A stretch of 64,000 nt of DNA from Maribacter luteus (GTDB lineage Bacteria > Bacteroidota > Bacteroidia > Flavobacteriales > Flavobacteriaceae): assembly GCF_009674825.1 (NCBI RefSeq), contig NZ_WKJH01000001.1, forward strand, positions 62,001 through 126,000, read 5' to 3'. Under the pieces are notes generated by a model. It had not been told where the DNA came from. It did no database searches and saw only the letters and a program-made list of their open reading frames with translations. How positions within the stretch are numbered: position 1 is the stretch's first letter; each line of letters begins with the position of its first letter. Both the position numbers and the translations under genes were made by a program. This document shows, one piece after another, positions 2,497 to 40,172 of the stretch.

Positions 2497-2500
2497 AGAG

Positions 2501-11904: not shown

Positions 11905-11936
11905 AACCCTTATTTGAGATAAATATAAATTAAATC

Positions 11937-11955
11937 TATGCAATCATAATGCACA
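11937..11955. promoter_or_regulatory. Candidate WYL-regulator operator before hsdR
   Basis: TATGCA-N7-TGCACA, 11 of 12 arm positions matching the perfect palindrome before the WYL gene at 24198-24216, with identical 7-base spacing. It lies 33-51 bases upstream of the hsdR ATG at 11904, in the short gap after the DUF262 gene, which fits a promoter-proximal repressor site. Binding by the WYL protein is inferred from the shared motif. Confidence 0.5.
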
Positions 11956-13784: not shown

Positions 13785-13787
13785 ATA

Positions 13788-14318
13788 TCAATAAGGGTTT
13801 AGTTTTACGTTCTCGATGCCCCCAAGCCATCTATTGACCGGAGTTGGTGCAGGATGAAAAGGATTTTTTGCCGTTGTTAATTTTAAGTGGTAGCAGGGTA
13901 ATTTCTGTTCTTCTATGGTACTTCGTATTCTTTTTGCACTTTCCTTTAAATAATTATGACAATCTACTCCGTTGCCCCAACACAATAGCACCTTGGTAAT
14001 GTTGTACTTGTTGGAAGTCAACATGGTTTCTATAAACTGTATATTTTCTTTTACCAACAAGGGGTCTGGTTCTTTGGGCAGAAACTCCGGTTTAGAGGTT
14101 CTACCCGGGTAGAGGTTGACCATATACCAACCGTCACAGCCGTTTTTAATTGCCAAATGCTCTATGTTCCTAGAAGTGGGGTCTAAGGTGTCTTCATTGG
14201 CCGTACTAGGGTTAAGTGCCACGGCCAAAAACTCGTTTTTACCTTTTTTACCCAAAAGAAACCTTTTTACAGGGTCTTTTTCAGGAATGCAAACGATAGG
14301 CTTTAAGGCTATATCCAT
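13788..14318 (-). CDS. DUF1643 domain protein
   Basis: A 176-residue protein with the DUF1643 features FLAVALNPSTAN near residue 30, YMVNLYPGRTS near 64 and a late HPAPTP. The biochemical role of this family is not known to me. Its ATG shares one base with the hsdS stop (TAATG), so translation is probably coupled to hsdS, and the DUF262 gene follows after 3 bases. This tight packing inside an hsd operon suggests an accessory role in restriction or in handling damaged or modified DNA. No membrane segment or signal peptide is seen. Confidence 0.75.
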   Translation of the reverse strand: MDIALKPIVCIPEKDPVKRFLLGKKGKNEFLAVALNPSTANEDTLDPTSRNIEHLAIKNGCDGWYMVNLYPGRTSKPEFLPKEPDPLLVKENIQFIETMLTSNKYNITKVLLCWGNGVDCHNYLKESAKRIRSTIEEQKLPCYHLKLTTAKNPFHPAPTPVNRWLGGIENVKLNPY

Positions 14319-15475
14319 TACACCAACTCCCCTTTGAATGCCTTTTGCAATAGGCTGTTAAACAATGCCTCCGATTTTTGAAGGCTTTTTTCAGCGAGGG
14401 CTTTTTGAGCCTCTATGGCTTGCGCATGCTCTGCAAATTGGTTTTGGAGTTTAATAGGTGGATAAAGAAATTTTAATTCCCTAACATTTTTTAAACTTAT
14501 ATTTGCTCTTGCTCCTTCAACTTTATTTCCAATTAACCTATCTTGTATTTGAGGAGTAATAATTTGATTTAATAAGAAAACTGAATCAACTATTTCTGTA
14601 TTAAGTTCAATTTTAGCTACTGCTTGATTTATATTCGCTGGTAAAAACTTTTCTTCCATTAAGGCTCCTCTCCCAATACTTGCTCCAACAAGATTAACTA
14701 ATAGATCATTTTTTTTAAGTTTTGATCGTTCAAGTTTTTCATGAAATTCTTTTGCAACAAATTTATCTTTTTCACAATCAAGATGGCCTAACCTTACGTT
14801 TTCACTTGTAATAAATCGAATGCCACTTGAGATATACTCAAATCCTTGCCATTTAGGTGATGACCCTTTTGTTACAATAAATGAAACATCTTCAATTTTT
14901 ATTTCTTTCCACCCCTTAGGATTGGTCACCGGATCCCCAAACATATCTAAAAAGAGGCTTTGGGTAAGCTGGTCGTATTTTTCTATTAGGGCCTTGGTTT
15001 TTTGTTTGTAGCTGTCCGCGGCATCTAAAATAGCCGCTATCTTTTTTTGGGTCTCTAGTGGGGGGAGGGGGATTTTTATATTCCTAATTTTTTTTACCGA
15101 CAAATGCTTTACCGTTGCAAAAGATGTTGTATCCTCTATTAACTTTAATTCGCGTGGCAATAAACGTAAAAGATAATCATCACATAATATACTACTATCT
15201 TTTGACCATATTTTACATACTCGCTGATTTAATAAAGCTTCATTCCCTTTCCATTTTGCTAACCTAAAGTCACCATCCATTCCAATAAGAAAATCACCCG
15301 AATTAATTAAATATTTATCATCATATTCACCATCAAAATAAGTGTTGGTTTTCTCCTTTCCAACATCTCGAATCCTAATTATAGGCTTACCTACACCCTT
15401 GTCATTAAACAATTTAGAATTAAAAGCATAACCGGACAACACTTCAATATATTCTCCCAATTCAACTAGCTCCAT
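14318..15475 (-). CDS. hsdS: Type I restriction specificity subunit S
   Basis: A 385-residue specificity subunit with the usual two-repeat plan. The first target recognition domain (about 1-130) ends in KIPLPPLETQKKIAAILD with a helical spacer. The second (about 180-340) ends in FLYPPIKLQNQFAEHAQAIE with a second spacer. These LPP...Q segments are the conserved boundaries of HsdS. It should bind a bipartite DNA target and bring HsdM and HsdR to it. The ATG overlaps the hsdM stop by one base (TAATG). The two recognition domains differ strongly, as expected for an asymmetric target, so the recognised sequence cannot be predicted by eye. Confidence 0.93.
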   Translation of the reverse strand: MELVELGEYIEVLSGYAFNSKLFNDKGVGKPIIRIRDVGKEKTNTYFDGEYDDKYLINSGDFLIGMDGDFRLAKWKGNEALLNQRVCKIWSKDSSILCDDYLLRLLPRELKLIEDTTSFATVKHLSVKKIRNIKIPLPPLETQKKIAAILDAADSYKQKTKALIEKYDQLTQSLFLDMFGDPVTNPKGWKEIKIEDVSFIVTKGSSPKWQGFEYISSGIRFITSENVRLGHLDCEKDKFVAKEFHEKLERSKLKKNDLLVNLVGASIGRGALMEEKFLPANINQAVAKIELNTEIVDSVFLLNQIITPQIQDRLIGNKVEGARANISLKNVRELKFLYPPIKLQNQFAEHAQAIEAQKALAEKSLQKSEALFNSLLQKAFKGELV

Positions 15476-16956
15476 TAATTCAAAAGATTTTCTAAAGTTA
15501 ACAATGCATCCGTTCGTTCCTTATCCAGTTCTTTTATGGCTTTTATAATATCCTTGGGGTCATCATATTCAATCTCCTCATATACAATTTCCTTATACCG
15601 GTTAATGGATAGATCCCAATCGTTGTCCTTGATCTCTTTAAAGGGTACCATAAAGCTTTGGTCGGTACGTTTACGATCCGCTTCGGCTTCTAAATTGTGG
15701 TAGCGTTTTAAAATATCGGGGATATCGTTGTCCTTTATTTCATTACGCTTGTCATCTAAACTATAACCATCGGCTTTCATATCGTAAAACCATACGTTGT
15801 CGGTACCTCCAGAATTGGTCTTGGTAAAGAACAAAACGGCGGTGCTAACCCCGGCATAGGGCTTAAACACCCCACTGGGCATAGAGATTACGGCTTGCAA
15901 CTTTTGGTTTTCTACCAACTCTTCACGTATGCTCTTATGGGCATTACTGCTGCCAAAAAGCACGCCATCGGGTACAATAACGGCCGCCCGACCCCCTACT
16001 TTTAAGCTACGTAACATTAAAGACAAAAAGAGGAGTTCGGTCTTTTTTGTCTTGGTGGTCTGCAATAGGCTGCTTTCTACCTCGTCATAGTCCAAACTGC
16101 CTTTAAACGGTGGGTTGGCCAGGATCAAAGTGTAGGCATCGTTTACATCGCCATTGGCCTCGCTCAAGGCATCCTTACCGGTCAATACCGGGGTTTCCAA
16201 ACCATGCAATTGCAGGTTCATGGCCGCTATACGTAACATGGAAGGGTCGAACTCGTTACCATGAAACATATTAGCGTGAAAATGCTCCCTAAAGGTTTTG
16301 TCCTGAAACCAGTCGTTATGGTTATCGTAAATATATTCCCCGGCACTTACCAGAAAACCGGCCGTACCACATGCCGGGTCGCAGATAATATCGTCTTTTT
16401 TAGGTTGTGCCATGGCCACCATCATATTAATGATATGGCGAGGGGTTCTAAATTGCCCATTGGTACCGGCTTCGGCAATTTTTGAGAGCATATATTCGTA
16501 GAGGTCCCCTTTGGTGTCCCTATTGTCCAACGGCAATTGGTCTATTTGCTGCACCACCTTGTCCAATAGTTTGGGGGACTGGATCATAAAAATGGCCCCT
16601 TTCATAAACTTGGCAAACTCGCCACCTTCGGCCCCTATGGTCTTCATAAAATCGAAAGCGGTAAGGTCGTCCAGTTCCCGTTGTTGTTTGGTAAACAGGT
16701 CAAACATGGCCTCCGGGTCTTTGTTCTTAAAGTTGCTCCACCGTAAAGGAGCCTGTTTTTTGGTATAGATGGGCTTTTCAATGGGAATGCCAAGCAGGTT
16801 GGCCTGCTTTTCCATTCGAATCTGCCTATCGTCCAGCTGTTTTATAAAAATGAGGTAGGTAAACTGTTCGATTACGGTTAAGGGATTGGATATTCCGCCC
16901 GTCCAGAAATCGTCCCAAATCTTATCTATTTTGCTTTTAATCTCCCCTGTGATCAT
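15475..16956 (-). CDS. hsdM: Type I DNA adenine-N6 methyltransferase subunit M
   Basis: A 493-residue HsdM. The N-terminal helical domain (about 1-140) precedes the methyltransferase core with the AdoMet motif DPACGTAGFL at 193-202 and the catalytic NPPF at 281-284. The segment GQFRTPRHI (about 168-176), typical of HsdM, is present. It should methylate adenine at the site chosen by HsdS and protect host DNA. The ATG at 16956 follows the stop of the membrane/coiled-coil gene with one base between (TAA-C-ATG), and its stop overlaps hsdS. All motifs needed for activity are present. A second HsdM-like domain is encoded nearby in the kinase fusion at 20391-23009. Confidence 0.95.
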   Translation of the reverse strand: MITGEIKSKIDKIWDDFWTGGISNPLTVIEQFTYLIFIKQLDDRQIRMEKQANLLGIPIEKPIYTKKQAPLRWSNFKNKDPEAMFDLFTKQQRELDDLTAFDFMKTIGAEGGEFAKFMKGAIFMIQSPKLLDKVVQQIDQLPLDNRDTKGDLYEYMLSKIAEAGTNGQFRTPRHIINMMVAMAQPKKDDIICDPACGTAGFLVSAGEYIYDNHNDWFQDKTFREHFHANMFHGNEFDPSMLRIAAMNLQLHGLETPVLTGKDALSEANGDVNDAYTLILANPPFKGSLDYDEVESSLLQTTKTKKTELLFLSLMLRSLKVGGRAAVIVPDGVLFGSSNAHKSIREELVENQKLQAVISMPSGVFKPYAGVSTAVLFFTKTNSGGTDNVWFYDMKADGYSLDDKRNEIKDNDIPDILKRYHNLEAEADRKRTDQSFMVPFKEIKDNDWDLSINRYKEIVYEEIEYDDPKDIIKAIKELDKERTDALLTLENLLN

Positions 16957-16957
16957 G

Positions 16958-17995
16958 TTAGTTTTTTATTTTATCAATAGTTTTGTCAATGGCACTTATT
17001 TTATCCTTTTCTTTCATAATTTCAATTACTTTCGATTTTAGCCTGTCATTCTTGATCAAAATCTCCGAGTTATATTCCAAGCGTTCCTTACGAACAACAT
17101 CTATTTCCGATTTAATGGCTTTGATCTGTTCTTGTAATTCATTAATAATTGCCTCCTTATCTTTAATTATTTGGTCTTTTTCATTGACTACAAGTTTGTT
17201 CTTGGCAATTTCTTGCAAGATATCTGTTTTTTGACGCTCATAATTATAGATTTCCGTAATTGCTGCCTTTTTATTGTACTCTAACTGATGTAATTTCATG
17301 ATCCGTAAACCTGCCCAATAATTAAAAACGGCTTCTGCAAGGGGGTAATTACCATGTAGCAGATTCCCTCCTTCCCTAATAAAATTGTCATAATGGTCTA
17401 CTGAACGTTCTTTAAATTCTTCCCAATTACCTACTCCCTTATAGGATTTGTAAATAGGATAGGCCGCCAAAGCAAACCCAACCGGACCAATGGCTATACT
17501 TATGACTTTGGACATACTAGTATAAAAGGCGAAAGGCAGGGTAACCCCTAATGCAGACGTTAGCGCTCCTACTGTTGATGTAGCCAACATATACACACCA
17601 AAACCGGATAGTTGGGCCGCCCCGATAGTGGTAAGTGCCGTAATCGATGCGACTTGGTCCTTGCTCAAACCCTTGGCCTCCAACTCTAGGAGAAAAGACC
17701 TCTTTTCTTCCGAAGAAAAAGATTCGAATTTTTTAGCGAATAATTTAATGAACAGTTCCGATTCTTTTTCGTAATCGGTTTTAAGATGAGTGATCGGGAT
17801 GTTATGCTTATCTGCAATTTTCTGAAGAAAACCCGAATAATTGAGCCCGGATTGCAATAGGCCTTTTGCCGGTAAAAGCACTTTGGCAAGTTTGTTTTTT
17901 AAAAGTACCCTCGGGTTATCCTTTTTTTCAATTTCGAATAGTTTGTAGAGCACAAAACGCTCTTTCTCGGTTAGGATGTATAATGGAAATGGCAT
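16958..17995 (-). CDS. Glycine-rich membrane-segment and coiled-coil protein coupled to hsdM
   Basis: A 345-residue protein. Residues 1-115 are helical and charged. Residues about 119-190 are hydrophobic and rich in Gly, Ala and Thr (ALTTIGAAQLSGFGVYML, then IAIGPVGFALAAYPIY), which suggests two or three membrane-inserting helices. Residues about 240-345 form a long coiled coil. The middle resembles the YaaW/UPF0174 group, but I would not assign it firmly. The stop lies one base before the hsdM ATG, so it is part of the hsd operon. Membrane proteins of this kind are not standard parts of type I systems, so it could be an effector or a membrane anchor. A 142-base gap separates it from the DUF2130 gene. 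Confidence 0.7.
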   Translation of the reverse strand: MPFPLYILTEKERFVLYKLFEIEKKDNPRVLLKNKLAKVLLPAKGLLQSGLNYSGFLQKIADKHNIPITHLKTDYEKESELFIKLFAKKFESFSSEEKRSFLLELEAKGLSKDQVASITALTTIGAAQLSGFGVYMLATSTVGALTSALGVTLPFAFYTSMSKVISIAIGPVGFALAAYPIYKSYKGVGNWEEFKERSVDHYDNFIREGGNLLHGNYPLAEAVFNYWAGLRIMKLHQLEYNKKAAITEIYNYERQKTDILQEIAKNKLVVNEKDQIIKDKEAIINELQEQIKAIKSEIDVVRKERLEYNSEILIKNDRLKSKVIEIMKEKDKISAIDKTIDKIKN

Positions 17996-18137: not shown

Positions 18138-19418
18138 TTACGACGTCTCAATCAATAAGTTATCGTCTTCATCGTCATAGCCCTCCCCCAATTCCAATGC
18201 TGGAATACTTTTTATTGCCTTGCCTGCTATACCTTTGATGGAAGCGTGCATATTAACGGCATTGTCTACCACTTTGGTTATTTGCTTTTCCCGCTGTTTC
18301 CAAATCCGGGCCATGGCGTTCTTTTCTTTTTGCAGGTCTATCTGCATTTGGGTAAATCCTTCTACGATACCCTCCATTTGCAAATGAAATTCATTGCTAG
18401 TCAAAAAGTCGTAAAGCATCCCCATTTTATCACCTTTATTCTCTTGGTTCTGCTTTAACTGGCTCCATTGCACTATGGATTGCCTTAGAACAGCACAGAG
18501 GCCTTTAAATTCTTCATAGGTGCAAATCCAAATACCATCCCTTAACCCCATTCTATCCATGTCACTTGGCGTTACTTCCGTGACCAGAACCCCAATATGG
18601 GCACCTTTATCCCGGATATCATTTTTAAATTTTTCTATCCAACCCTGTTGAAAAGATTTGGTACGCTTACTTTCATAGTAAATTGTTCCACAATTAGACA
18701 ATTCCCTGGTATTGACCACTTGTATACAGTCAGCACCATTTGCACCTTTTTTGATTTCTTCAATGGCGTCTAATGGAAACTGGGTAGCCAACCACTCTTC
18801 TATGGCCAATTCCATAACTTCTCCTTGCAATTGCATGGAGCCTTGCTCATGTTTACGTTTCATCTCTTCCGCAAGCTTCTTCTGGTCTTCGAGTTGCTTT
18901 TGTAGTTCCTTCACCTTAAATTCTGAAGCTTCTTCTGCTCTTTTTTTAATTTTTTCTTCAGCCTCTTTGAGCTGATCGTTCAACTCTCTTTGCGCTTCTA
19001 ATTTAGCAACTTCAGAAGCTTCACCAACTTCTCGTTTTAGCTTTTCGATTTCCACCTCTTTTTTAAGTAAGTCCTTTACTTTTTCAGATTTTTCGGCCAA
19101 TTCTTCTTGCATTGCCTTTAACCGGTCTTGATTATCTTCTTCAAGTTTTGCCTTCAGCCTTATTTCAATTGCTCTCTCTGCCTCCTTACTTTGTTTTTCC
19201 AATCGTTCTTGAAACATCTCGTTTTCACGTTTCTTTTTGGCTTCAAACTCTTCCTTTTCTTTTTGAAGTTCGGCCTCTTTTTGACTGTGATTATCCAATA
19301 GTTCCTTTTTTTCTTTTAGGAACTCCTGTTTTAACCCATCTTCTATTTGATGCTTTAGGATGTCATTTACATCAATTTGACTTCCGCAATCTGGGCATTG
19401 AATGGTGGTATTACTCAT
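18138..19418 (-). CDS. DUF2130 protein: zinc ribbon, coiled coil, nuclease-like C-terminal domain
   Basis: A 426-residue protein. It begins with CPDCG at 8-12, half of a zinc ribbon, followed by an almost unbroken charged coiled coil (about 25-190). The DUF2130 domain follows, with E200, D230 (GANGADC) and ESK at 249-251 (IYYESKRTKSF). The E...D...ExK order is that of PD-(D/E)XK nucleases, so a DNA-cutting role is possible. This is motif reading, not a proven fold. The last 60 residues are helical and acidic. A palindrome like the WYL site lies just upstream, suggesting a promoter here. Members of this family often occur in mobile or defence regions, but no function is established to my knowledge. 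Confidence 0.75.
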   Translation of the reverse strand: MSNTTIQCPDCGSQIDVNDILKHQIEDGLKQEFLKEKKELLDNHSQKEAELQKEKEEFEAKKKRENEMFQERLEKQSKEAERAIEIRLKAKLEEDNQDRLKAMQEELAEKSEKVKDLLKKEVEIEKLKREVGEASEVAKLEAQRELNDQLKEAEEKIKKRAEEASEFKVKELQKQLEDQKKLAEEMKRKHEQGSMQLQGEVMELAIEEWLATQFPLDAIEEIKKGANGADCIQVVNTRELSNCGTIYYESKRTKSFQQGWIEKFKNDIRDKGAHIGVLVTEVTPSDMDRMGLRDGIWICTYEEFKGLCAVLRQSIVQWSQLKQNQENKGDKMGMLYDFLTSNEFHLQMEGIVEGFTQMQIDLQKEKNAMARIWKQREKQITKVVDNAVNMHASIKGIAGKAIKSIPALELGEGYDDEDDNLLIETS

Positions 19419-19485: not shown

Positions 19486-20394
19486 TCAACAATAATCTTT
19501 GTAAGTTTTTTTAAACCAAAGCAAAATTTCAAAAAGCCCAAATCGCAATGATTCCAATGCATAGTTTGATATCATATAAACATCATTATCCTGATTTTCC
19601 AAATAGTGGATATAAGATCCACAAGTATAATATATCCATTCATGTAAGTTCTTTATTTCTTTTGTTTGATAAACCATTGATGTTGGTTTCCACCCATTAT
19701 CTTTTGAAACATTACCGGATAAATGTTTTAATATATTATTTAAAGAATCATTGGCATTCGGAATAACTCTAATTGTTTGTAATCGCATTAGACAACTTTC
19801 ATGCACACTACGAATATTTGTAAGCACGCCTTTTAATTCAGAAGTATTCGAGGGTAAGGAATCAATTATAAGATGTAACACTTGGTTTTCAACATCATCG
19901 TTTAGATAGCCAAGTTCGAAGATTTCAAATATCTCCTGATTATTCTGACGAGCTTGGGTTTCTGGTAGCTTATCTGCCTCCTGAATCATTTGGGTCCAAA
20001 GATTTTCATACTCTTTTTCGTCCCCGAGTTTATCAAAGACTTTCCCGTCTTTAAAAGCAGCTGCATATTTATTTTCCTCTTTTGTGAAAGAGTCCTGCCC
20101 CGATAAAATATACCAAGGCAATTTTTTACGTACCTCTAACCGCAGTAAAGCCTTAGCAACTTTACCCATTGCCGCATCTTGGGTAGGTTTGCCTTTTTCT
20201 GAAGGGGTCTCATAAAAAATACCGTCTAACAATGCAGCGTCATAGGCTTCTATATTTTGCTCAAGTTCGGCAATACCCTCTTCTGCATTACTATATCCTA
20301 CCAGGGTTATACCTTTCAAATGAGCACTTTCCCTAATGCGCTTACGTTCTAAATGTTCGTCATCAAACCATATGACCTTGTACCGTTTCATCAT
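19486..20394 (-). CDS. Response-regulator-like receiver protein with unknown C-terminal domain
   Basis: A 302-residue protein. Residues 1-140 show the receiver pattern: acidic pair DD at 11-12 (FDDEH), phospho-acceptor candidate D57 (ALLDG), S98 (LSGQD) and K122 (VFDKLGD). All four conserved positions are in the right order. Residues about 145-302 look helical and carry no known DNA-binding or enzyme motif. The ATG overlaps the kinase-fusion stop by four bases (ATGA), so the two proteins are made together and are the likely phosphorelay pair. The output is unknown: it could control promoters, the restriction complex or a partner. The receiver call is by motif. It could still be a degenerate receiver that binds without phosphorylation. 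Confidence 0.75.
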   Translation of the reverse strand: MMKRYKVIWFDDEHLERKRIRESAHLKGITLVGYSNAEEGIAELEQNIEAYDAALLDGIFYETPSEKGKPTQDAAMGKVAKALLRLEVRKKLPWYILSGQDSFTKEENKYAAAFKDGKVFDKLGDEKEYENLWTQMIQEADKLPETQARQNNQEIFEIFELGYLNDDVENQVLHLIIDSLPSNTSELKGVLTNIRSVHESCLMRLQTIRVIPNANDSLNNILKHLSGNVSKDNGWKPTSMVYQTKEIKNLHEWIYYTCGSYIHYLENQDNDVYMISNYALESLRFGLFEILLWFKKTYKDYC

Positions 20395-23009
20395 TCTTCT
20401 AGTATTGGAAAATTAAAATTAAATGTAGTAACATATTCACTTTTTGTTAAAGGATATTTTCTTCCAAAAACCATTATATTATTACTTTCTTGTTGTTTCT
20501 CCGGCCAAAGTTCATTGGATAAAAACCAATCGGCCTTATGTTTTTTCACTATTTCATTCACTAACCAAAGACCAAAACCATCCCCTTTTTTAGAACTATT
20601 ACCATATCCCTTTTTTTTAAGATCATCCAATGAAATGTTCTTTGGTAAAGGTTCACCCGTATTAGAAACTGTGAAACAAATTCTTTTGGTATCTGCACCA
20701 TCATCAATTCCCCAAACAAAAATTTCAATTTTGCCTTTTTCATTGATAAAAGCATGTTTAAAGGCATTATCAATCATATTATCCAGTAAAGAATTGATTA
20801 ACTCCTTATTTCCTAAAACATACTCAAAATCAGCACTGGGATAGCTTCTGAAAAAATCTTTATCAAAATCAAATTCAATAAAATATCCTAAAGCCGATGA
20901 GTTTTCACTTTTACGCATTACATATTCTTCAATATGCTTTAATAAGTTTAATTTATGTAGTTTCTTTTGTTCTATTCTTTGGGATGAACTGAGTTTATTC
21001 GCAATTGTTTCCAATATGACTGCAAAATGCTTTTTTGAATCTTCTACATGCTCCCCAAGGGTATATAAATGGTCTTCTGAAACTTTTGTGTTCAATATTT
21101 CCGGCATCTCCTGATTGGATATATTCTTTAAGATAATATCAATATTTTTAAGCGCATGTCCTAAATCGGAAAGAGGGCCGGCAACTGTATGTCTTAAATA
21201 TGAGTTTTGTTCAATGATATCCGTTTCTAGGTTGTCCAACTTCTTTTCTAAACCTTGAATCATACCAATTTCCTGAAGCTGTTCCTTTAGTGGTGGCAGG
21301 TTTATTTTGATTTTCAGAAAATCTTCTTTTCGTAATCTAAGTACAGTTCCCTTTACCAAAATATTCAACTGTTCTTTAACCATGGGTGCATTCAAAGCTC
21401 TTACCAACCAGTATTTATTTACTTGTTTTTCATCAATGCTAAAGGCTAATACATCATTTGAAATATGAACCAAGGTATTTCTAGCGGGCAAAAAAGAGGT
21501 CTTAAGTTTTGTTCCTATTAAAGAAACCAGAAACACATCCTTATTTATAAACTTTCCGCTTTTTACATCCTTTTTATCCAAAGATTCAATATTTACATCA
21601 AAATCTTTTTGATCATTTTTTAAATCTTTAGAAGAAATATGCTTCGTTGAAATAAAAGGTACTTTGTGCTGATAGCTAACTTCATCCTCATTTTCAAAAT
21701 ATTCTATGGCTTGTTTAAAAGTTAATGTATCAACAATATTCAGGAACTCAATTAAAGGGGTTCCTTTTACCTTATTTAGCCAATATCTTTTTACGTCTAA
21801 GTAATAATGATTTTCAGCTATAACGTCTTGATTGATCAATTCAGGTAATAATGTTCCTTCAGGAATATATCCCACATGAGGTTTTTTATTAGGTTTTAGA
21901 ATATCCCATATCTCTTCTAACAATCCTTCAGGATAAAAAACCTTATCAAAACGATTTAAGTCGGTAACAAATTCAGAACCATGAAAAAATGCAACTTTGC
22001 CCTTGTTGATTTTATCTTTATTAAGTAATAAAACGGCAAAAGGAATATTTGTTTGCATTAAAAGCCCCCCGGGGAATGATATTACAGCTTCAAGGAAATC
22101 ATTTGCAATAAGATGTTTCCTAATTTGTTCGTCCTGCTGTCCAAATAAGAAATTTATAGGAACAATGGTAATTAACTTACCATCCGGTTTAAGGAGCTTT
22201 ATACCCTCCAGAATCATGAAGTGTTCTACCGATTTAATACCTGAAAAATTAACTTTATGATTAATGTCCAATGGGAGTCTAAAAGGAGGGTTTGAAACCA
22301 CCAAATCAAATTTTTTGGTAGACGGCCAAGAATTAAAAGTATCCACTTCAAGAAACTCACTATTGTTGAGTAGTCCATGAGCATTTAATCGTAAAATAGC
22401 TACGGCCCAGGTCAAACGAGTAATTTCATGACCTAAGTAGGTTTGGTTTTGAGTAAGTTCAATACCAAAAGTCGCCAAGCCCCCAAAAGGATTAAAGACT
22501 TCCGCACCTTTTTTTAAATCAGCCAATTGCATCAAAAACCACCCGATTTCTTTAGGCAGTACAAATTCACCGACTTTTTTCCCTTGTGAAGCAACAATAT
22601 GTTCTAGCAATGAGTCAAAAACCACACTAAAATCAGCTTTTTCCAAAAGTGGCCAGAAATCATCTCTCAATGGATATATCAAATAATCGATTAAAGGATA
22701 TTTTTTAGAAATCAAAGAATTGAAAACTTCATTGACCTCTATGAAAATTGCTTTGTCCTCAGGGACATTGTGTAACTCTAATCTTTGCTTCTCATAATAT
22801 TGGTCCAAACTATTGTTCTCTTCTTGGAATAGAGTATTTTGATCTTGAAGGTTGGTCCTTTCTGTAATAACTTTAAGCTGGATTCCTTCTTTTTTACAAG
22901 TTATCAGATACAAAAGAAGATAAAGGTCTTCTGTTGGCACTCCCTGATTTCGAAAATTCGAAACCAACTTTATAACACTTTCTTTAATTATATTTTCCAA
23001 AACGTTCAA
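20391..23009 (-). CDS. Fusion of type I DNA methyltransferase, HsdS-like recognition domain and histidine kinase
   Basis: An 872-residue protein with three parts. Residues about 130-400 are HsdM-like: GEFVLPKEI, then FNPFGGLATFGIEL at 172-185 where HsdM has DPACGTAG, and NPPF at 240-243. Residues about 405-575 look like one HsdS recognition domain ending in the hallmark INLPPLKEQ. A coiled coil follows, then an H-box-like YLRHTVAGPL with H607, and a GHKL ATPase with an N-box (LLDNMIDNAFKHAF, near 740-753), SNTGEPLP and GDGFGLWLVNEI near 810-821. The methylase motif I is altered, so activity is uncertain. The HsdS spacer helix runs straight into the kinase dimerisation helices. It overlaps the receiver gene by four bases. 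A sensor that reads DNA or its methylation and signals by phosphorylation is my inference; I know of no described example. Confidence 0.85.
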   Translation of the reverse strand: MNVLENIIKESVIKLVSNFRNQGVPTEDLYLLLYLITCKKEGIQLKVITERTNLQDQNTLFQEENNSLDQYYEKQRLELHNVPEDKAIFIEVNEVFNSLISKKYPLIDYLIYPLRDDFWPLLEKADFSVVFDSLLEHIVASQGKKVGEFVLPKEIGWFLMQLADLKKGAEVFNPFGGLATFGIELTQNQTYLGHEITRLTWAVAILRLNAHGLLNNSEFLEVDTFNSWPSTKKFDLVVSNPPFRLPLDINHKVNFSGIKSVEHFMILEGIKLLKPDGKLITIVPINFLFGQQDEQIRKHLIANDFLEAVISFPGGLLMQTNIPFAVLLLNKDKINKGKVAFFHGSEFVTDLNRFDKVFYPEGLLEEIWDILKPNKKPHVGYIPEGTLLPELINQDVIAENHYYLDVKRYWLNKVKGTPLIEFLNIVDTLTFKQAIEYFENEDEVSYQHKVPFISTKHISSKDLKNDQKDFDVNIESLDKKDVKSGKFINKDVFLVSLIGTKLKTSFLPARNTLVHISNDVLAFSIDEKQVNKYWLVRALNAPMVKEQLNILVKGTVLRLRKEDFLKIKINLPPLKEQLQEIGMIQGLEKKLDNLETDIIEQNSYLRHTVAGPLSDLGHALKNIDIILKNISNQEMPEILNTKVSEDHLYTLGEHVEDSKKHFAVILETIANKLSSSQRIEQKKLHKLNLLKHIEEYVMRKSENSSALGYFIEFDFDKDFFRSYPSADFEYVLGNKELINSLLDNMIDNAFKHAFINEKGKIEIFVWGIDDGADTKRICFTVSNTGEPLPKNISLDDLKKKGYGNSSKKGDGFGLWLVNEIVKKHKADWFLSNELWPEKQQESNNIMVFGRKYPLTKSEYVTTFNFNFPILEE

Positions 23010-23149
23010 ATCTTTTACTCTATGATAATTAATCTTAACCTTTTAAATGCTGAGGGTTATTTAATATAATTGGAATATGCAATACCTCTATTAATTTTTT
23101 AGTTTTAAAACTTGATTTTATTTACCGAAGCACATATCTAAAACAAAGG

Positions 23150-23168
23150 TGTGCATATTGTGTGCATT
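23150..23168. promoter_or_regulatory. Candidate WYL-regulator operator before the kinase fusion
   Basis: TGTGCA-N7-TGCATT, 10 of 12 arm positions like the palindrome at 24198-24216 with the same spacing. It lies between the WYL stop at 23178 and the fusion ATG at 23009, about 140 bases upstream of that ATG. This is the weakest of the four matches and also reads as a direct repeat of GTGTGCAT. Confidence 0.4.
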
Positions 23169-23177
23169 CTTTCTGCA

Positions 23178-24179
23178 TTAATCATAGTGCTTTTTACATT
23201 CTATAAGCCTAAATCTAATTTTATCTCTAAAATATTCGGGGGAAAGCACCTCTATATCATCACCATAAGACAAAATTAATTTCTCTAATTCAAAATTTGG
23301 TATTACTTCTAATGTCATATAAACATACTCGATATCGGTGTGTTTCTTTTTTTGTGAGCCATGTAATGGTTTTGTTTCAATATAAGGCCAGAGCTTCTTA
23401 GAAACTTTCATCTCAATAGTCTCAACCCTACCTTCTTTAATCGTCACCCCGATAACATCCTCAAAGTACTCTTCAAAGTTTATTTCGGTTTCCTCATAGA
23501 GCAATTCGATTTCTTTTATCTCCATAATCCTATCTAAAGGATAGTTGGTTAAACTTTTATAATCCGGATTACGCCCAAAAAGAAACCATCTTGAGTTGAA
23601 CTGCTTTAAATGGTAAGGAAAGAAATTAATGGTGAATTTATCTTTATCAAAAGGTTTATATGTAATCTCAATTGCCTTTTTATGATTAATGCTATTGAAG
23701 AGTTGCCCTAAAAACTCTAATCCCTTTAGATAAGGATTGTTTTCAAAAGACATGATATCATTTTGGGTTTCACCCAACATAAATGTTTGGTCCAACTTTG
23801 GCAATAACTCGTTAACCCATTCAAATTGTGGCATACCCTTAAATCTTGATAGTACCAACATGGCCGATTTTAATTGCTCTGCTTCAAGTTCATTTATAGG
23901 GTTATTGCTTATGGAAAAACTAGGATCTGCATAACTGTAATATGTATTTCGACCTTCTTTTATCTTTTTAAATTCAACCCCATATCCTTGACTGGATTCC
24001 ATGAATCGAATGTCTTCGTATAATTGTCTCTTCTGTATACCCTCAGAATTAGGGTTGTATTCTAAAAGAGCTTTGTTACAAACTTCTAAAAGGGTGGTGA
24101 TATTATATCTCCGACCCGGATTAGAAAAGCATCTGTCTAGGGCTTGATAACGAATAAGTGCATTTTTATTGATAGGCAT
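23178..24179 (-). CDS. WYL-domain transcriptional regulator
   Basis: A 333-residue regulator. Residues about 1-95 contain a winged-helix-like DNA-binding region (ITTLLEVCNKAL, RQLYEDIRFMES). The WYL domain lies at about 150-230, with SRWFLFGRNP where the family has its WYL signature. A C-terminal extension follows (about 235-333). Proteins of this design, such as BrxR and CapW, repress defence operons and are released by a ligand or damage signal. A perfect palindrome lies 19-37 bases upstream of its ATG, so it probably controls itself, and similar sites occur before three other genes of the island. It is the first gene of the minus-strand block. Confidence 0.9.
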   Translation of the reverse strand: MPINKNALIRYQALDRCFSNPGRRYNITTLLEVCNKALLEYNPNSEGIQKRQLYEDIRFMESSQGYGVEFKKIKEGRNTYYSYADPSFSISNNPINELEAEQLKSAMLVLSRFKGMPQFEWVNELLPKLDQTFMLGETQNDIMSFENNPYLKGLEFLGQLFNSINHKKAIEITYKPFDKDKFTINFFPYHLKQFNSRWFLFGRNPDYKSLTNYPLDRIMEIKEIELLYEETEINFEEYFEDVIGVTIKEGRVETIEMKVSKKLWPYIETKPLHGSQKKKHTDIEYVYMTLEVIPNFELEKLILSYGDDIEVLSPEYFRDKIRFRLIECKKHYD

Positions 24180-24197: not shown

Positions 24198-24216
24198 TGT
24201 GCACTAACAGTGCACA
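24198..24216. promoter_or_regulatory. Perfect palindrome before the WYL gene, likely its operator
   Basis: TGTGCA-CTAACAG-TGCACA. Counting inner bases, the perfect arms are TGTGCACT and AGTGCACA around AAC. It is centred about 28 bases upstream of the WYL ATG. It is the best copy of a motif repeated at 11937, 19461 and 23150. Autorepression through such a site is usual for WYL regulators of defence systems; here it is inferred. Confidence 0.65.
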
Positions 24217-24593: not shown

Positions 24594-27500
24594 GTGCATG
24601 TAACGAGGATTGACTTTAGCTCTAATCAATTATACTATATTAATCTGTGCCCAATGTTTAGTTTAAAAGCAGCCTATTACACGGAAGAAGTCAACCAGTT
24701 TCTTACAGGTTTTGTAGAGCCGGTTATATTAAAAGAACTAACCCATGAATTAAGTGGGTTTACGGTGCACAATGGCCCCAATTACATAGATAAGGATAAC
24801 CTGCCCCCATTGTACAAAGTAGCTTGGAACCTGCTTAACCGTGGCAACCATACCCGGGCATCATTACATTTAAGTTCATATTTGCTAAAGAAGTATTTTG
24901 GGGAGGAGTTATCCAAATTCAACACCGCTAAACCCGTTATTACTGCAGCCTCTATTACATTTGATGTAGACATAGACCCTGTTGAACTTACCCAGTTTAT
25001 AGAGGCCATACCGCTTCTAAAAGAAGAGGAAACCGTAGGTTGGGGTAGTTTCTATAGTAATATATATCAGTATATTAATAAAATCACCTTGTTTGCCCAA
25101 TTACATAAAACCATGCTATTTTGTCTTTTGGCAGACCCAAAACCTACCCATTTCATAATCAAGGGCCTGTCACAAGAAGAAACAGATCTTTTGCAAGAAG
25201 ATTTAAATCTTCTCTTTACCGCTCTAAACAACCTAATTGGGCCAGAAGAAACCCCGATTGCATTTTTAGGGGAAAATTCGTTGAACAATAGCGTAACGAT
25301 TAACTGTGAAAGCAATAACGGGGAAGATATTTACATCAGCAATGATTATGAAAAGAAGAATCATCTTCCCTTTACTTTTTTGTTTGACAGAAGAATACAA
25401 TACGCCCCCCTAGGCACATTATTGGAAGAAGAGGTAGAAGGTGCAAATGGCAACATACAGACCCAACGGTTTATCTATGACGCACCTGAGAAAGAGGAAG
25501 CCATACACTATTTTTTACAGAACATTTTTAGAAAGTCGGGCTTTAGGCCTGGCCAAGAGTCCATTATTAACAGGGCGCTTCCGGGACAAGACGTAATTGG
25601 CCTTTTACCCACCGGTGGTGGTAAGTCGCTAACCTTTCAGATCTGTGCTCTACTACAACCGGGTGTAACCGTGGTGGTAGACCCGATAAATTCTTTAATG
25701 AAAGACCAGTATGATAAGCTTCTGGAAAACGGTATTACCAATGTAAACTTCATCAACTCTTTTGATGACAAAGATACTCGGGATGTCAAATTTAAAGAAT
25801 TGCAAAAAGGAAATACGCTCATAGTCTTTGTTTCCCCGGAGCGTTTTCAGATGCAAAACTTTAGGACTACCCTTGCTGCCAGTAAAAACACAGGGGTGTA
25901 TTTTAGCTATGCGGTTATAGATGAAGCGCATTGCGTGTCGGAATGGGGCCATGATTTTAGGCATGTCTACCTAAACTTGGCAGAAAACCTTAGAAGACAT
26001 TGCCCAACCAAAAACCAGGACCTTACCTTTTTTGGATTAACCGCCACGGCTTCTTTTGATGTGTTGGCAGATGTACAAAGAGAATTGGGGCTTGCAGATG
26101 AGGCGGTTGTTACGTTACCCGCAGAAGCCATTGACCGTAAAGAGTTAAATTTTAAAATACTTTCTGTAGATCTGAATATAGAGGAGAATTTGGTGTTTCA
26201 TGAAAGGGAACGGCAATTGGCTCATGTAAAATACCCCGTTTTACATCAGTTTTTAGAAGATATGCCCAATAGTATTGCGCAACTGGAGGCCCAATATGGG
26301 TTAATAGGTACTAATGGTGAATTTTATGGTGATACAGATGGCAGGTATAAAAATGCAGGGGTAATTTTTTGTCCGTCCAAATCGGATAAGTTGGCCAGTG
26401 GTGTACTTCACCTTAAAAATGGTAGAGGTAATGAGTTTAGGGGCTTGAATAGTTTACCTTTCTTAAACATCTCCACCTTTTTTGGTAGTGGAAATGATGA
26501 CAGTATAGCCAATAAAAAAGTAGATGAAGCAGCAAAGGAATCACTGGGAAACCAGAATGACTTCCTAAGAAACAAGTCCAACCTCATGTTGGCCACCAAG
26601 GCCTTTGGCATGGGGATAGATAAGCCCAACATTAGATATTCCGTACACTACAGTTTTCCTAATTCCGTAGAAAGTTTTTATCAAGAAGCTGGTAGGGCCG
26701 GTAGGGATAGGCAACCCTCACTTTGTACCATTTTATACCATCCTCTGGATGCAGAAATGAATATAGAATTTTTCAGGAACGGCTTTAGGGGAGAACAAAG
26801 GGAAAAAGAAATTATAGACGAACTTCTAGACCAAGTACAGTATGAAGATGAGTTCTTTGTAAAACTATTTGCAGCAAAAATTAAAGAGAAGTTCAATGAG
26901 GTAAATGCTGTAAAACTATATAATGACAGATATGTTCGTTTTTATGGGCCTTATAAGGCGGTGGCAGAAGACCGAATTCAAATAGGTCTTTTGGACTTGG
27001 AGCGCAATTTAAGGAGTTATGACAATTCCACAAAAAATTTCAAAAGAGACAAAGCAGATGAAATATTAAGTTTTGCTAGAAAAATACTAAAGGAACTTTG
27101 TCCGGATGGTGAGTATTTGAAATGGTTTAAAAGCAAAAAGGCAGATGGTATTAAAACCTTGATAGAAAAAAAACAATCTGATAGATACACACTAATTATT
27201 GGATTTAATAATGATGTTATTTCTAGAATTACAGAGGTTATAAAAAGTCAGGGCTATCCTGGATTCAAGGATAAAATTGTAACAGCAGCTTATAGTTTCA
27301 CCTCTGGGCCAGAGGATTTGGTAGAAAATTTGTACAAAAAATATAGAAGTGCCAAACACCAAGAAAATATAAATGGACCGGATGAGCTCTTACTGAACCC
27401 GGACACTATTACTTTTATCAAGAATAATTACCATCGAATAAGAAACATAGCAGACACCCAAAGGGCAATATACAGACTGAACCTACTAGGTATTATAGAT

Positions 27501-28310
27501 GATTATGTCATTGATTATTCAGAAAGGGCCATAGAGGTAAGGTTCAAGGCCAAAAGTGATAAAGAATATTTAACCAATTTTGAGATGTATCTAAGAAGGT
27601 ACTTGGGTATAGAGACCTCTAAAAAATGGTTGTCAAAAGCAAAACGACAAGGAAAGGAAAACATTTTAATCGGGGTAATGTACACCCTTATAGAATTTAT
27701 CGAGAGTGAAGTAGCCAAAAAACGGGAACGCTCTATAAACTACATGCAGCAATTGTGTGAGGTGTATTTAGAAGTCGGTGAACGGGAGTTCCGTGACAGG
27801 ATGATTCGATATTTCACTTCTAAGTACGCCAGAACCGATTATTTACCCGCGGATACGGATAACGGCCGTAAAGCAAATTGTGACATTGTTAAAAAGTATA
27901 TTGGCTTTATAGACAACCCTCCTGATGGTTTAGGAGGTCAAATAGACAACGCCAAACACCTTCGTGGCGCATGCGATAACTTGAGGATAAATATGAAAGA
28001 AAATGCCAGCATAGATTTATTAACGGCATTCAGTCTTTTTGCACTAGAGTTAAAACAAGAAGATACGCTCACAAGTGCCCAAGAGAAACCTTTGGTGAAG
28101 CAAGCAAAAGAATTATATCAAAATGGGTTTAAACAAATGCTCAGGATAGATTCTTGGGATAGCGTTTTAGTGTTAATTGAAATTTTTAATACCAAAGTAT
28201 TGGATTTCAATTCTGCTGTGCGACCCATGTTAGAAGATTTATCATTAGAAATTTTGACCAATAGAACCAATTTCCAATTAACAAAGCTTATACATAAACT
28301 TACAGCATAA
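24594..28310 (+). CDS. Large RecQ-like DNA helicase
   Basis: Up to 1238 residues. The first 300 residues have no family I recognise. The RecQ core follows: FRPGQESII (about 320), Walker A PTGGGKS near 338, DEAHCVSEWGHDFR from about 442, GLTATAS, then a long insert before KAFGMGIDKPNIR and QEAGRAGRDRQ near 700. The C-terminal half (about 740-1238) is helical and does not show a clear RQC or HRDC domain, so this is not a housekeeping RecQ of about 600-700 residues. The start is uncertain: GTG 24594 is the first possible codon after an in-frame stop, and ATG 24654 is the next choice. The stop overlaps the next ATG by one base (TAATG). Its position in the island and its partner suggest a defence role, which is inferred. 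Confidence 0.85.
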   Translation: MHVTRIDFSSNQLYYINLCPMFSLKAAYYTEEVNQFLTGFVEPVILKELTHELSGFTVHNGPNYIDKDNLPPLYKVAWNLLNRGNHTRASLHLSSYLLKKYFGEELSKFNTAKPVITAASITFDVDIDPVELTQFIEAIPLLKEEETVGWGSFYSNIYQYINKITLFAQLHKTMLFCLLADPKPTHFIIKGLSQEETDLLQEDLNLLFTALNNLIGPEETPIAFLGENSLNNSVTINCESNNGEDIYISNDYEKKNHLPFTFLFDRRIQYAPLGTLLEEEVEGANGNIQTQRFIYDAPEKEEAIHYFLQNIFRKSGFRPGQESIINRALPGQDVIGLLPTGGGKSLTFQICALLQPGVTVVVDPINSLMKDQYDKLLENGITNVNFINSFDDKDTRDVKFKELQKGNTLIVFVSPERFQMQNFRTTLAASKNTGVYFSYAVIDEAHCVSEWGHDFRHVYLNLAENLRRHCPTKNQDLTFFGLTATASFDVLADVQRELGLADEAVVTLPAEAIDRKELNFKILSVDLNIEENLVFHERERQLAHVKYPVLHQFLEDMPNSIAQLEAQYGLIGTNGEFYGDTDGRYKNAGVIFCPSKSDKLASGVLHLKNGRGNEFRGLNSLPFLNISTFFGSGNDDSIANKKVDEAAKESLGNQNDFLRNKSNLMLATKAFGMGIDKPNIRYSVHYSFPNSVESFYQEAGRAGRDRQPSLCTILYHPLDAEMNIEFFRNGFRGEQREKEIIDELLDQVQYEDEFFVKLFAAKIKEKFNEVNAVKLYNDRYVRFYGPYKAVAEDRIQIGLLDLERNLRSYDNSTKNFKRDKADEILSFARKILKELCPDGEYLKWFKSKKADGIKTLIEKKQSDRYTLIIGFNNDVISRITEVIKSQGYPGFKDKIVTAAYSFTSGPEDLVENLYKKYRSAKHQENINGPDELLLNPDTITFIKNNYHRIRNIADTQRAIYRLNLLGIIDDYVIDYSERAIEVRFKAKSDKEYLTNFEMYLRRYLGIETSKKWLSKAKRQGKENILIGVMYTLIEFIESEVAKKRERSINYMQQLCEVYLEVGEREFRDRMIRYFTSKYARTDYLPADTDNGRKANCDIVKKYIGFIDNPPDGLGGQIDNAKHLRGACDNLRINMKENASIDLLTAFSLFALELKQEDTLTSAQEKPLVKQAKELYQNGFKQMLRIDSWDSVLVLIEIFNTKVLDFNSAVRPMLEDLSLEILTNRTNFQLTKLIHKLTA

Positions 28311-28933
28311 TGGAAAAGACCATAGCGCTTCAAAAAGAATTTGAATCCCTGATTTCGCAATTAGAACAACTAAAGGCTATTAATGAATTAACCGAAAACA
28401 ACTCTAAGAATGCAAAGAAAACAATTGATGCAACCGCAGAATTATCTAAATCCTTGAATGTATTTAAAGAGAACATTTCTGAAGACTATGTCAAAAAGAA
28501 AGAGGATTTACAACAAGTTATATCCAAGTTTGAAGCCAGTATAACGGCAATTAAAAATGATTTTGAAAATGAGGTAAAAAATCATCAAGATGCCATTGTT
28601 GCACTTAATCAAAGCAATCACAAGGAGATGAAAGAACTTCAAAAAAATCTAGCCCAAAAGGTAGAAGATTTTGAATTTCAGTTAAAGTCATCCACAGAGA
28701 CCGTTGAAATCTTTTTAGATAGTTTTAGAAAAGAGCTTAAATCAACATTTGATGATAATTTTAATTCATTTAAGGATGATATAAAAAATTTGTCAAATTC
28801 CGTTAGGCAATTAGAAAATGCTATATCAAAGAAACTTGAAGGAAATAGAAGAGAAACCAAAGATGTTAAAAAAATGGTTGTCGCTGTAGGGGTGTTTTTA
28901 TTAATTACTGCCATTGTTTTAAAATTCATTTAA
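28310..28933 (+). CDS. Coiled-coil protein with C-terminal membrane anchor, partner of RecQ-like helicase
   Basis: A 207-residue protein. Residues about 5-180 are nearly all charged heptad-like coiled coil, ending in EGNRRETKDVKKM. Residues about 187-206 (VVAVGVFLLITAIVLKF) are one hydrophobic helix, so it is a tail-anchored inner-membrane protein with a long cytoplasmic rod. Its ATG shares one base with the helicase stop, which implies coupled translation and a stoichiometric partnership. Pairing a DNA helicase with a membrane-anchored coiled coil recalls the logic of membrane-linked defence systems such as Zorya, but no sequence kinship to ZorA or ZorB is visible. Confidence 0.75.
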   Translation: MEKTIALQKEFESLISQLEQLKAINELTENNSKNAKKTIDATAELSKSLNVFKENISEDYVKKKEDLQQVISKFEASITAIKNDFENEVKNHQDAIVALNQSNHKEMKELQKNLAQKVEDFEFQLKSSTETVEIFLDSFRKELKSTFDDNFNSFKDDIKNLSNSVRQLENAISKKLEGNRRETKDVKKMVVAVGVFLLITAIVLKFI

Positions 28934-40086: not shown

Positions 40087-40160
40087 GGTCGCGTAGCTCA
40101 GCTGGATAGAGCATCTGCCTTCTAAGCAGACGGTCGAAGGTTCGAATCCTTCCGCGATCA
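40087..40160 (+). tRNA. tRNA-Arg (anticodon TCT)
   Basis: The cloverleaf closes fully. The acceptor GGTCGCG pairs with CGCGATC (one G-T pair), there is a D-arm with AGCTCAGCTGGATAGAGC, and the anticodon stem TCTGC/GCAGA carries the loop CTTCTAA. The T-arm is GAAGGTTCGAATCCTTC. Discriminator A; CCA is not encoded. Frames read across it on either strand are not genes. Confidence 0.96.
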
Positions 40161-40172
40161 CAACACTCTCAA

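Follow-up and report, generated by a model that had tools for sequence, protein, structure and literature searches.

Can the DNA recognition machinery of a type I restriction enzyme serve as the input of a histidine kinase? The question is raised by a locus of Maribacter luteus (Bacteroidota; Flavobacteriaceae), within a 64,000-nucleotide stretch of DNA (contig NZ_WKJH01000001.1, positions 62,001 to 126,000; 'the window'), in which a methyltransferase-specificity-histidine kinase fusion (MSK) is followed by an overlapping putative receiver gene (REC). Our analysis points to a conserved pair of proteins in which a methyltransferase-derived module would feed a phosphorelay.

Architecture of the MSK-REC pair

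MSK (positions 20391–23009, minus strand, as are all genes of the cassette described here) is an 872-residue protein with a TTG start, in which Pfam matches to N6_Mtase, Methylase_S and HATPase_c follow one another in a single open frame. Its N-6 methyltransferase-like domain (residues 126–410; 21780–22634; N6_Mtase, E = 2.3e-29) carries the motifs NPFGGLAT (motif I) and NPPF (motif IV, residues 240–243). Next comes a single target recognition domain (TRD), equivalent to half of a specificity domain (residues 415–577; 21279–21767), which ends in LPPLKEQ (residues 571–577) and coincides in part with the Methylase_S match (residues 448–600, E = 4.4e-5). A linker and DHp/H-box region (residues 578–690; 20940–21278), with the codon of H607 at 21189–21191, leads into a GHKL catalytic ATPase (CA) domain (residues 691–872; 20394–20939) that contains the HATPase_c match (residues 735–830, E = 1.3e-9) and the residues N744/N748, N783/G785 and G811/G813. 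The REC frame (19486–20394, 302 residues) overlaps that of MSK by 4 bp (ATGA, 20391–20394) and comprises a receiver domain (residues 1–140; 19975–20394), with D57 as its predicted phospho-acceptor, and a C-terminal output domain (residues 150–302; 19489–19947). The four-part polypeptide, the positions of NPPF, LPPLKEQ and H607, and the four-base overlap with a gene that retains receiver residues are all as an earlier first-pass annotation of the window had described them. Full-length MSK occurs once in the window genome.

MSK and REC form a conserved gene family

Scanning GTDB species genomes with a profile gave 63 loci, nearly all of them from Bacteroidota, with one labelled Balneolaceae and one labelled Fibrobacter; an IMG/VR contig (L036) that carries the same genes as one of these loci (L047) raises the number to 64, of which 63 are distinct. 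The scan undercounts the family because it was based on two short peptide patterns, and two genomes considered below (G207 and G067) are not in it. The co-occurrence of the two genes across genomes, for which the first-pass annotation had proposed a search, is borne out, with REC directly downstream of MSK in 61 of the 64 loci at a spacing of −32 to +22 bp. The other three are two loci that stop at a contig edge (L037 and L061) and one (L052) in which MSK lies in two frames followed by REC; this is the only split MSK, and complete MSK frames number 59 among the 64 loci. The kinase part was also found at E ≤ 1e-20 in 11 of 395 genomes from a phylum-wide sampling of Bacteroidota (own genome included), in every case within a single open frame of 823–954 residues. 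Among 60 related genomes, again including that of the window, a near-full-length homologue is present in one other (G024), and a single-protein genome scan found no relatives.

The surroundings of the pair recur as well. In 56/64 loci one of the six genes preceding MSK encodes a WYL protein (three of the remaining eight loci have less than 300 bp of upstream sequence). HsdM is among the six genes that follow in 49 of the 57 loci with at least 4 kb of downstream sequence, and HsdR is found in 37 of the 50 that have at least 9 kb. The exceptions for HsdM are two loci in which it is upstream (L056 and L065), two in which an HsdM-length frame scores best as MSK (L075 and L096) and four with no HsdM-type gene near the pair (L049, L084, L090 and L094). 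Among five genomes and a Myroides plasmid, three plasmid records of which have MSK and REC side by side, type I genes adjoin the WYL-MSK-REC triad on the plasmid and in G024, G212 and G131 (counts that are not independent of the scan, because these are the contigs of L087, L086 and L068). No type I genes were found in the 20 kb covered in G067, and in G207 no HsdM-type gene stands directly beside it, HsdM-like pieces lying about 8 kb away. We regard it as near certain that the fusion is real and represents a conserved gene family. In Bacteroidota the pair usually adjoins a restriction system.

Two loci illustrate the settings in which the pair is found. The Myroides odoratimimus plasmid pFM-G13 (L023) carries the complete cassette on a 43-kb mobilizable replicon, with a phospholipase-D-like gene in its hsdS-hsdR interval. 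In Rufibacter roseus (L036/L047) genes of phage-like appearance, as judged by eye, lie upstream of the pair on the contig present in IMG/VR, and in L047 the pair is followed by an HsdM of 782 residues.

Kinase and receiver residues are conserved

We aligned 60 MSK proteins, including that of the window (leaving out L047, a copy, and L052, L061, L062 and L085, which are split or incomplete), and, separately, 61 receiver proteins. H607, which the first-pass annotation had picked as the H-box histidine, is invariant in all 60 MSK proteins, as are N748, N783, G785, G811 and G813, with N744 present in 59. When a kinase-region profile built from 26 sequences was compared with solved kinases, H607 fell under the phospho-acceptor histidine of 4i5s, 5c93, 4u7n and 4jas, that is, in four of the five kinase alignments listed; the fifth, 3sl2, lacks the H-box region. 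Pfam recognized HATPase_c in 33 of 34 MSK C-termini. On the receiver side, D11, D12, D57 and K122 are present in 61/61 proteins and position 98 is always T or S. The features of a two-component system are therefore found in the pair: an H-box histidine and the N and G boxes of a GHKL ATPase in one protein, and an acidic pair, an aspartate, a threonine or serine and a lysine in the other. We judge it highly probable that MSK and REC constitute a phosphotransfer pair. The distance between the TRD boundary (Q577) and H607 is 41 residues in 45/60 MSK proteins and 39 in a further 11, a near-constant length that would fit direct mechanical coupling.

Kinase and receiver diverge together

Pairwise identities of the individual modules were compared over 59 loci (1711 pairs, with 1176 available for HsdM and 1081 for the TRDs of HsdS). 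The DHp and CA domains each correlate with the receiver at a Spearman coefficient of 0.79, as against 0.45 and 0.50, respectively, with the methyltransferase of their own chain, and the partial correlation of kinase with receiver, given methyltransferase and TRD, is 0.75 (0/2000 label permutations). Such co-divergence is as expected for a pair of proteins predicted to exchange a phosphate. Neither HsdM nor the HsdS TRDs correlate with any domain of MSK (−0.13 to 0.03). The C-terminal domain of REC tracks the methyltransferase (partial correlation 0.40, 0/2000) and tracks neither the kinase (0.04, 418/2000) nor its own receiver (0.00, 238/500).

Among the 119 locus pairs whose MSK TRDs are at least 0.6 identical, the receivers have a median identity of 0.80 if the kinases are at least 0.5 identical, and an identity of 0.33 if the kinases fall below 0.35 (29 pairs). 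L045 and L066 have a common TRD (0.79) but not a common DHp (0.19), CA (0.29) or receiver (0.36); conversely, L068 has its DHp (0.84 and 0.80) and receiver (0.84 for both) in common with L071 and L079 but not its TRD (0.30 and 0.27). We read these cases as a matched kinase-receiver block that appears to be exchanged between sensors and outputs.

L071 and L079 themselves are near-identical in WYL, methyltransferase, TRD and kinase (0.92–0.96), with receiver proteins that are 0.59 identical and 385 versus 296 residues long; the difference is a swap in the output part.

The sensor part resembles HsdM and HsdS but is uncoupled from the linked HsdS

The MSK family profile matches 3lkd and the HsdM of EcoR124II (7bst_D) in its methyltransferase part and the S subunits 5ybb_D and 3okg in its TRD part, which points to type I HsdM and HsdS as the source of the input module. 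It differs from them in having no HsdM_N domain in Pfam (TIGR00497 scores 44.7 bits against a cut-off of 242.75), in having one conserved specificity stretch where HsdS has two hypervariable TRDs, and in the attached kinase. The methyltransferase part also matches PADLOC mad2 (3.8e-18), while MAD2 of the MADS system is absent from the six NCBIfam families that match MSK.

All 60 MSK proteins have NPFxGxA and E195, where the HsdM proteins of the same loci mostly have DP...G. The altered S-adenosylmethionine (AdoMet) motif that the first-pass annotation had pointed out is thus real in a limited sense, and, since it occurs throughout, is a trait of the family and not decay of the window copy; the same conservation makes ligand binding by this domain likely. 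Motif IV is canonical ([NDS]PP[FY]) in only 37/60 MSK proteins, versus NPP[FY] in 53 of 56 HsdM frames from MSK loci (the three misses are fragments).

Conservation of the specificity stretch was compared between 60 MSK and 50 HsdS sequences, aligned separately. The mean BLOSUM score of the MSK TRD is 1.64, nearly as high as that of the methyltransferase (1.93); means over 25-residue segments are 1.69–2.35 across residues 451–575 and 0.34 for the gappy residues 426–450, while residues 1–125 and 201–325 of HsdS from the same loci have means of 0.04–1.02. A match between the MSK TRD and the specificity of the linked HsdS was sought and was not found: over all usable pairs (1081 of 1711 with HsdS data), MSK TRD identity has Spearman coefficients of −0.13 and 0.02 with HsdS TRD1 and TRD2, a test of low power because the HsdS TRDs have diverged almost to the point where they can no longer be aligned. 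Of the 119 pairs with MSK TRDs at least 0.6 identical, 84 have HsdS data, and in these the median identity is 0.16 for one HsdS TRD and 0.17 for the other. L058 and L091 are 0.96 identical in the MSK TRD and 0.94 in HsdM, yet 0.28 and 0.11 in the HsdS TRDs. The contrast in conservation is the stronger evidence for this decoupling. Since the MSK TRD is conserved and those of HsdS are hypervariable and uncorrelated with it, the sensor would not be following the target of the linked enzyme. The first-pass proposal of signalling on the presence or methylation of a DNA site is therefore disfavoured as far as a site matched to the neighbouring restriction system is concerned. We read MSK as a methyltransferase that would have become a sensor and whose input would be fixed; that its methylase part may have no enzymatic activity is supported in part, by the state of motif IV. 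That input is probably related to nucleic acid.

The output domain of REC

R195 and H263 are invariant in the C-terminal part of all 61 REC proteins. Lengths fall into two groups, at least 375 residues (46/61) and at most 311 (15/61), and those of the longer homologues that Pfam recognizes carry a CSD/S1-like (cold-shock/S1-like) end. S1CSD-TOTE-2 was matched in 15/61 proteins at E values up to 0.1, alongside weak matches to cold-shock and S1-like structures in the Protein Data Bank from E = 0.0045. By eye, the C-terminal part resembles DUF4145/HEPN domains; an hhalign comparison with the N-terminal domain of HsdR, made to look for likeness to DUF4145-type HEPN, aligned R, E and H, at a probability of 1.3% and E = 0.039. 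The window REC frame has no match in Pfam, PADLOC or NCBIfam. A defence-related output seems to us evenly balanced with its alternatives, and an output directed at RNA would be a guess.

A WYL regulator and a conserved palindrome

The gene 5′ of MSK (23178–24179) encodes a WYL-domain regulator (Pfam WYL, 5.5e-10; WCX, 2e-7). The interval between the two contains two overlapping copies of TGCA-N7-TGCA with three half-sites (23152–23177, starting at 23152 and 23163) and, 15 bp after the first pair, the element TTTG (23144–23147, minus strand), which we take to be the −7 box of Bacteroidota promoters. Further copies lie upstream of the WYL gene (24200–24214) and over the predicted start of hsdR (11939–11953). 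The window thus has four such sites in 64 kb, versus about two predicted from the background rate, and all of them (11939, 23152, 23163 and 24200) are at or just before the start of a cassette gene; TGCACA alone is not enriched across the window (19 found versus 23 expected).

Within 49 WYL-MSK gaps (2776 bp) the palindrome is exact in 32, has one mismatch in 11 and is missing from six, three of which (L070, L083 and L093) have an exact site just outside the measured gap. Only a spacer of 7, among spacers of 3–15, is enriched in the gaps; outside them, the loci contain 32 sites of this kind over 1.12 Mb. Of the 32 gaps with an exact palindrome, 28 have TTTG exactly 15 bp after it and one has TTTG at 7 bp; in the other three there is no TTTG ahead of the predicted start.

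Because its half-sites and 7-bp spacer resemble a type I target, we considered the palindrome as a possible site of MSK itself. We nevertheless assign it provisionally to the WYL protein, because WYL orthologues without MSK carry it and distant WYL proteins do not carry it exactly. Apart from that of the window, 16 of 20 WYL orthologues (41–59% identity) have no MSK in their 1.5-kb flanks, the range that this survey covers; eight of the 16 have an exact site within 300 bp on the upstream side or 400 bp on the downstream side of the WYL gene, three have a one-mismatch site right after its stop codon and five have neither. None of nine distant WYL genes (36–38%) has an exact site, and in L110 MSK is present and the site is absent. 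MSK may still bind the palindrome, because it persists ahead of MSK in five loci with no WYL gene within six genes (L036 and its copy L047, L039, L056 and L065). In L036/L047 there is no WYL gene within 10 kb upstream, and the site stands at −267.

Relatives of the WYL protein occur in 57 of 299 genomes of the family (E = 1e-40), versus six for the receiver (E = 0.001). Since both the WYL relatives and the site extend beyond MSK, the protein is probably a wider defence regulator with the MSK operon in its regulon. The window also contains a Druantia type III pair (121–8386, plus strand), consisting of a DruH-like protein (PADLOC, 2.8e-28) and DruE (E = 0). The WYL family may control Druantia too, because the WYL flanks in L109, L118 and L127 carry a relative of window positions 121–2496.

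As far as the available part of PMC9122601 goes, BrxR/CapW proteins are WYL regulators with inverted-repeat operators at defence operons, type I systems included (34/210). The repeat reported for BrxR has a length of 11 bp and a spacer of 5 bp, which differs from TGCA-N7-TGCA; the locus has in common with that class a WYL domain and an inverted-repeat site at the operon, to which binding is predicted. By analogy with these precedents, the WYL protein probably represses the MSK operon at this candidate operator.

Neighbouring genes

The REC-hsdM interval holds a DUF2130 protein (18138–19418; Pfam, 2.5e-73), as it does in some other loci, and a 345-residue protein with partial likeness to JukA (16958–17995; PADLOC, 5.4e-12). 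The linked type I system consists of HsdM (15475–16956; PADLOC MTase_I, 2.1e-183), HsdS with two specificity stretches (14318–15475; Pfam Methylase_S, 1.6e-33) and HsdR (8464–11943; PADLOC REase_I, 4.1e-178). Between hsdS and hsdR (11988–14318, minus strand) are genes for a DUF262-like protein (PADLOC HEC-05, 6.3e-30) and a 176-residue protein. Divergent from the WYL gene (24594–28933, plus strand) are a 1238-residue RecQ/DpdF-like helicase and then a 207-residue coiled-coil-like protein with a hydrophobic C-terminus. The sole tRNA gene of the window, tRNA-Arg(tct) (40087–40161, plus strand), is a possible island boundary.

Relation to known systems

We found no description of the fusion in the literature searched, which included few subscription papers and no bioRxiv preprints. 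Detocs is a two-component defence system and, to our knowledge, has no methylase or recognition domain; its name is not among the matches listed by PADLOC, whose library's inclusion of Detocs was unchecked.

The nearest published relative is the HEF_HK/Response_reg_2 family (PF19191 and PF19192; Bellieny-Rabelo 2021, PMC8011034), known to us from part of that text. Like MSK-REC, it is described there as a pair of soluble kinase-like and receiver-like proteins adjoining restriction-modification genes, of type II above all and of type I too. Unlike MSK, its kinase is tied to HATPase_c_3/paraMORC, and the available text of PMC8011034 does not contain the terms N6_Mtase, WYL or 'fused'. PF19191 and PF19192 are absent from the Pfam matches of the window and from all 17 families matched by 34 MSK C-termini, and for REC neither is among the matches listed (25 of 35 families). 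The first-pass statement that no described system is built in this way therefore stands, within the literature searched, for the fusion and not for the general idea, which is not new because a two-component-like family beside restriction genes has been published (PMC8011034, in the part available).

CapK-CapS, as presented in the available part of PMC13373217, is like our proposal in being a DNA-responsive kinase that controls an immune operon; it differs in pairing an anti-sigma-type kinase with a STAS-like repressor, and its abstract names no methyltransferase or receiver. A figure legend in the available part of the DefensePredictor study (PMC13092281) names HATPase and REC among the domains of predicted systems, so some overlap is possible.

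A model for MSK-REC and its alternatives

The explanation that we favor overall, and hold to be reasonably probable, is a phosphorelay from a methyltransferase-TRD input through H607 to D57, encoded by a WYL-controlled operon. MSK would be a histidine kinase, soluble and dimeric, that has captured a type I methyltransferase with a single TRD as its input module. Two copies would clamp DNA symmetrically (M2-TRD2). Whether DNA, AdoMet or an inhibitor that mimics DNA occupies the clamp would be signalled through the helix after the TRD into the phospho-acceptor bundle and would change the autophosphorylation of H607, from which the phosphate would pass to D57 of the co-encoded receiver. The C-terminal domain of REC would then direct the response at the linked type I restriction enzyme or be an effector in its own right. 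The kind of input would be one for the whole family, independent of the target sequence of the neighbouring HsdS, and the operon would be controlled by the WYL protein at TGCA-N7-TGCA beside the promoter, probably as a repressor. More tentatively, and less probably than not, the pair might represent a new class of signal transduction, in which a retired type I methyltransferase serves the kinase as a sensor for a constant DNA state or for an anti-restriction attack shared by many phages, switching on an RNA- or restriction-directed defence through the receiver, with the adjoining restriction system as exchangeable cargo.

Several observations pull the other way. The window MSK has the shortest stretch between Q577 and H607, an outlier at 30 residues. 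Its methyltransferase retains NPPF and may still methylate; the first-pass suggestion of a methylase part that binds or senses and does not modify is supported in part, by motif IV across the family. For the 61 REC proteins no receiver or HEPN family is among the matches listed (25 of 35 Pfam families), and their profile matches solved receivers weakly (3jte, E = 0.013; PorX 7pv7, E = 0.016); REC is identified as a receiver by its conserved residues more than by family matches. Block recombination between neighbouring stretches of DNA would also make kinase and receiver diverge together; it accounts for part of the pattern and is not fully separable from selection for matched partners, and the C-terminal domain of REC goes with the kinase-receiver block in L068/L071 (0.78), although not in L068/L079 (0.20). 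Pfam matched HisKA in only 1/34 MSK members, and a subset of 12 of 47 loci (66 pairs) gives a correlation of 0.245 (p = 0.047) between the MSK TRD and HsdS TRD2.

This last, weak correlation would suit a monitor of self-methylation, in which MSK senses whether the site of the linked type I system is methylated and delays or relieves restriction, as would the operon-like order with hsdM, hsdS and hsdR and the presence of the cassette on a mobilizable plasmid. We think such a monitor very unlikely, given that the MSK TRD is uncorrelated with the HsdS TRDs over the usable pairs and that L058 and L091 combine matching MSK TRDs with dissimilar HsdS TRDs. The rarity of HisKA matches, together with the published link of restriction-associated GHKL proteins to paraMORC (PMC8011034, in the part available), would instead suit a paraMORC-like ATPase or clamp to which the receiver is a mere binding partner without phosphotransfer; the invariance of H607 under the H-box histidine, the conserved receiver residues and the co-divergence of kinase and receiver make this scarcely probable. 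A fusion created by sequencing or assembly, which the first-pass annotation had named as a way for its proposal to fail, was rejected and has a negligible chance of being correct: apart from the two-frame protein of L052 nothing in its favor was found, and the fusion is conserved in single open frames in loci across the phylum.

A special case of the phosphorelay that we favor is that the constant methyltransferase-TRD part acts as a decoy of HsdM-HsdS and detects anti-restriction factors of phages (DNA mimics or enzymes that remove AdoMet), the kinase and receiver then triggering a back-up response. A precedent for such a guard is PrrC, which is found next to a type I system. A conserved clamp that is decoupled from HsdS, often lacks canonical catalysis and mostly stands beside restriction genes speaks for this reading, but the four loci without a nearby HsdM-type gene, and G067 and G207 with none directly beside the pair, speak against it; we consider it unlikely, though well within consideration.

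If the proposed phosphorelay is correct, a sensor kinase fed by the recognition machinery of a DNA-modifying enzyme would link events on DNA directly to a phosphorelay, and would show how signalling can watch over or back up a restriction system. The MSK-REC family offers for this a testable pair of residues (H607 and D57), a conserved output domain and a conserved candidate operator.

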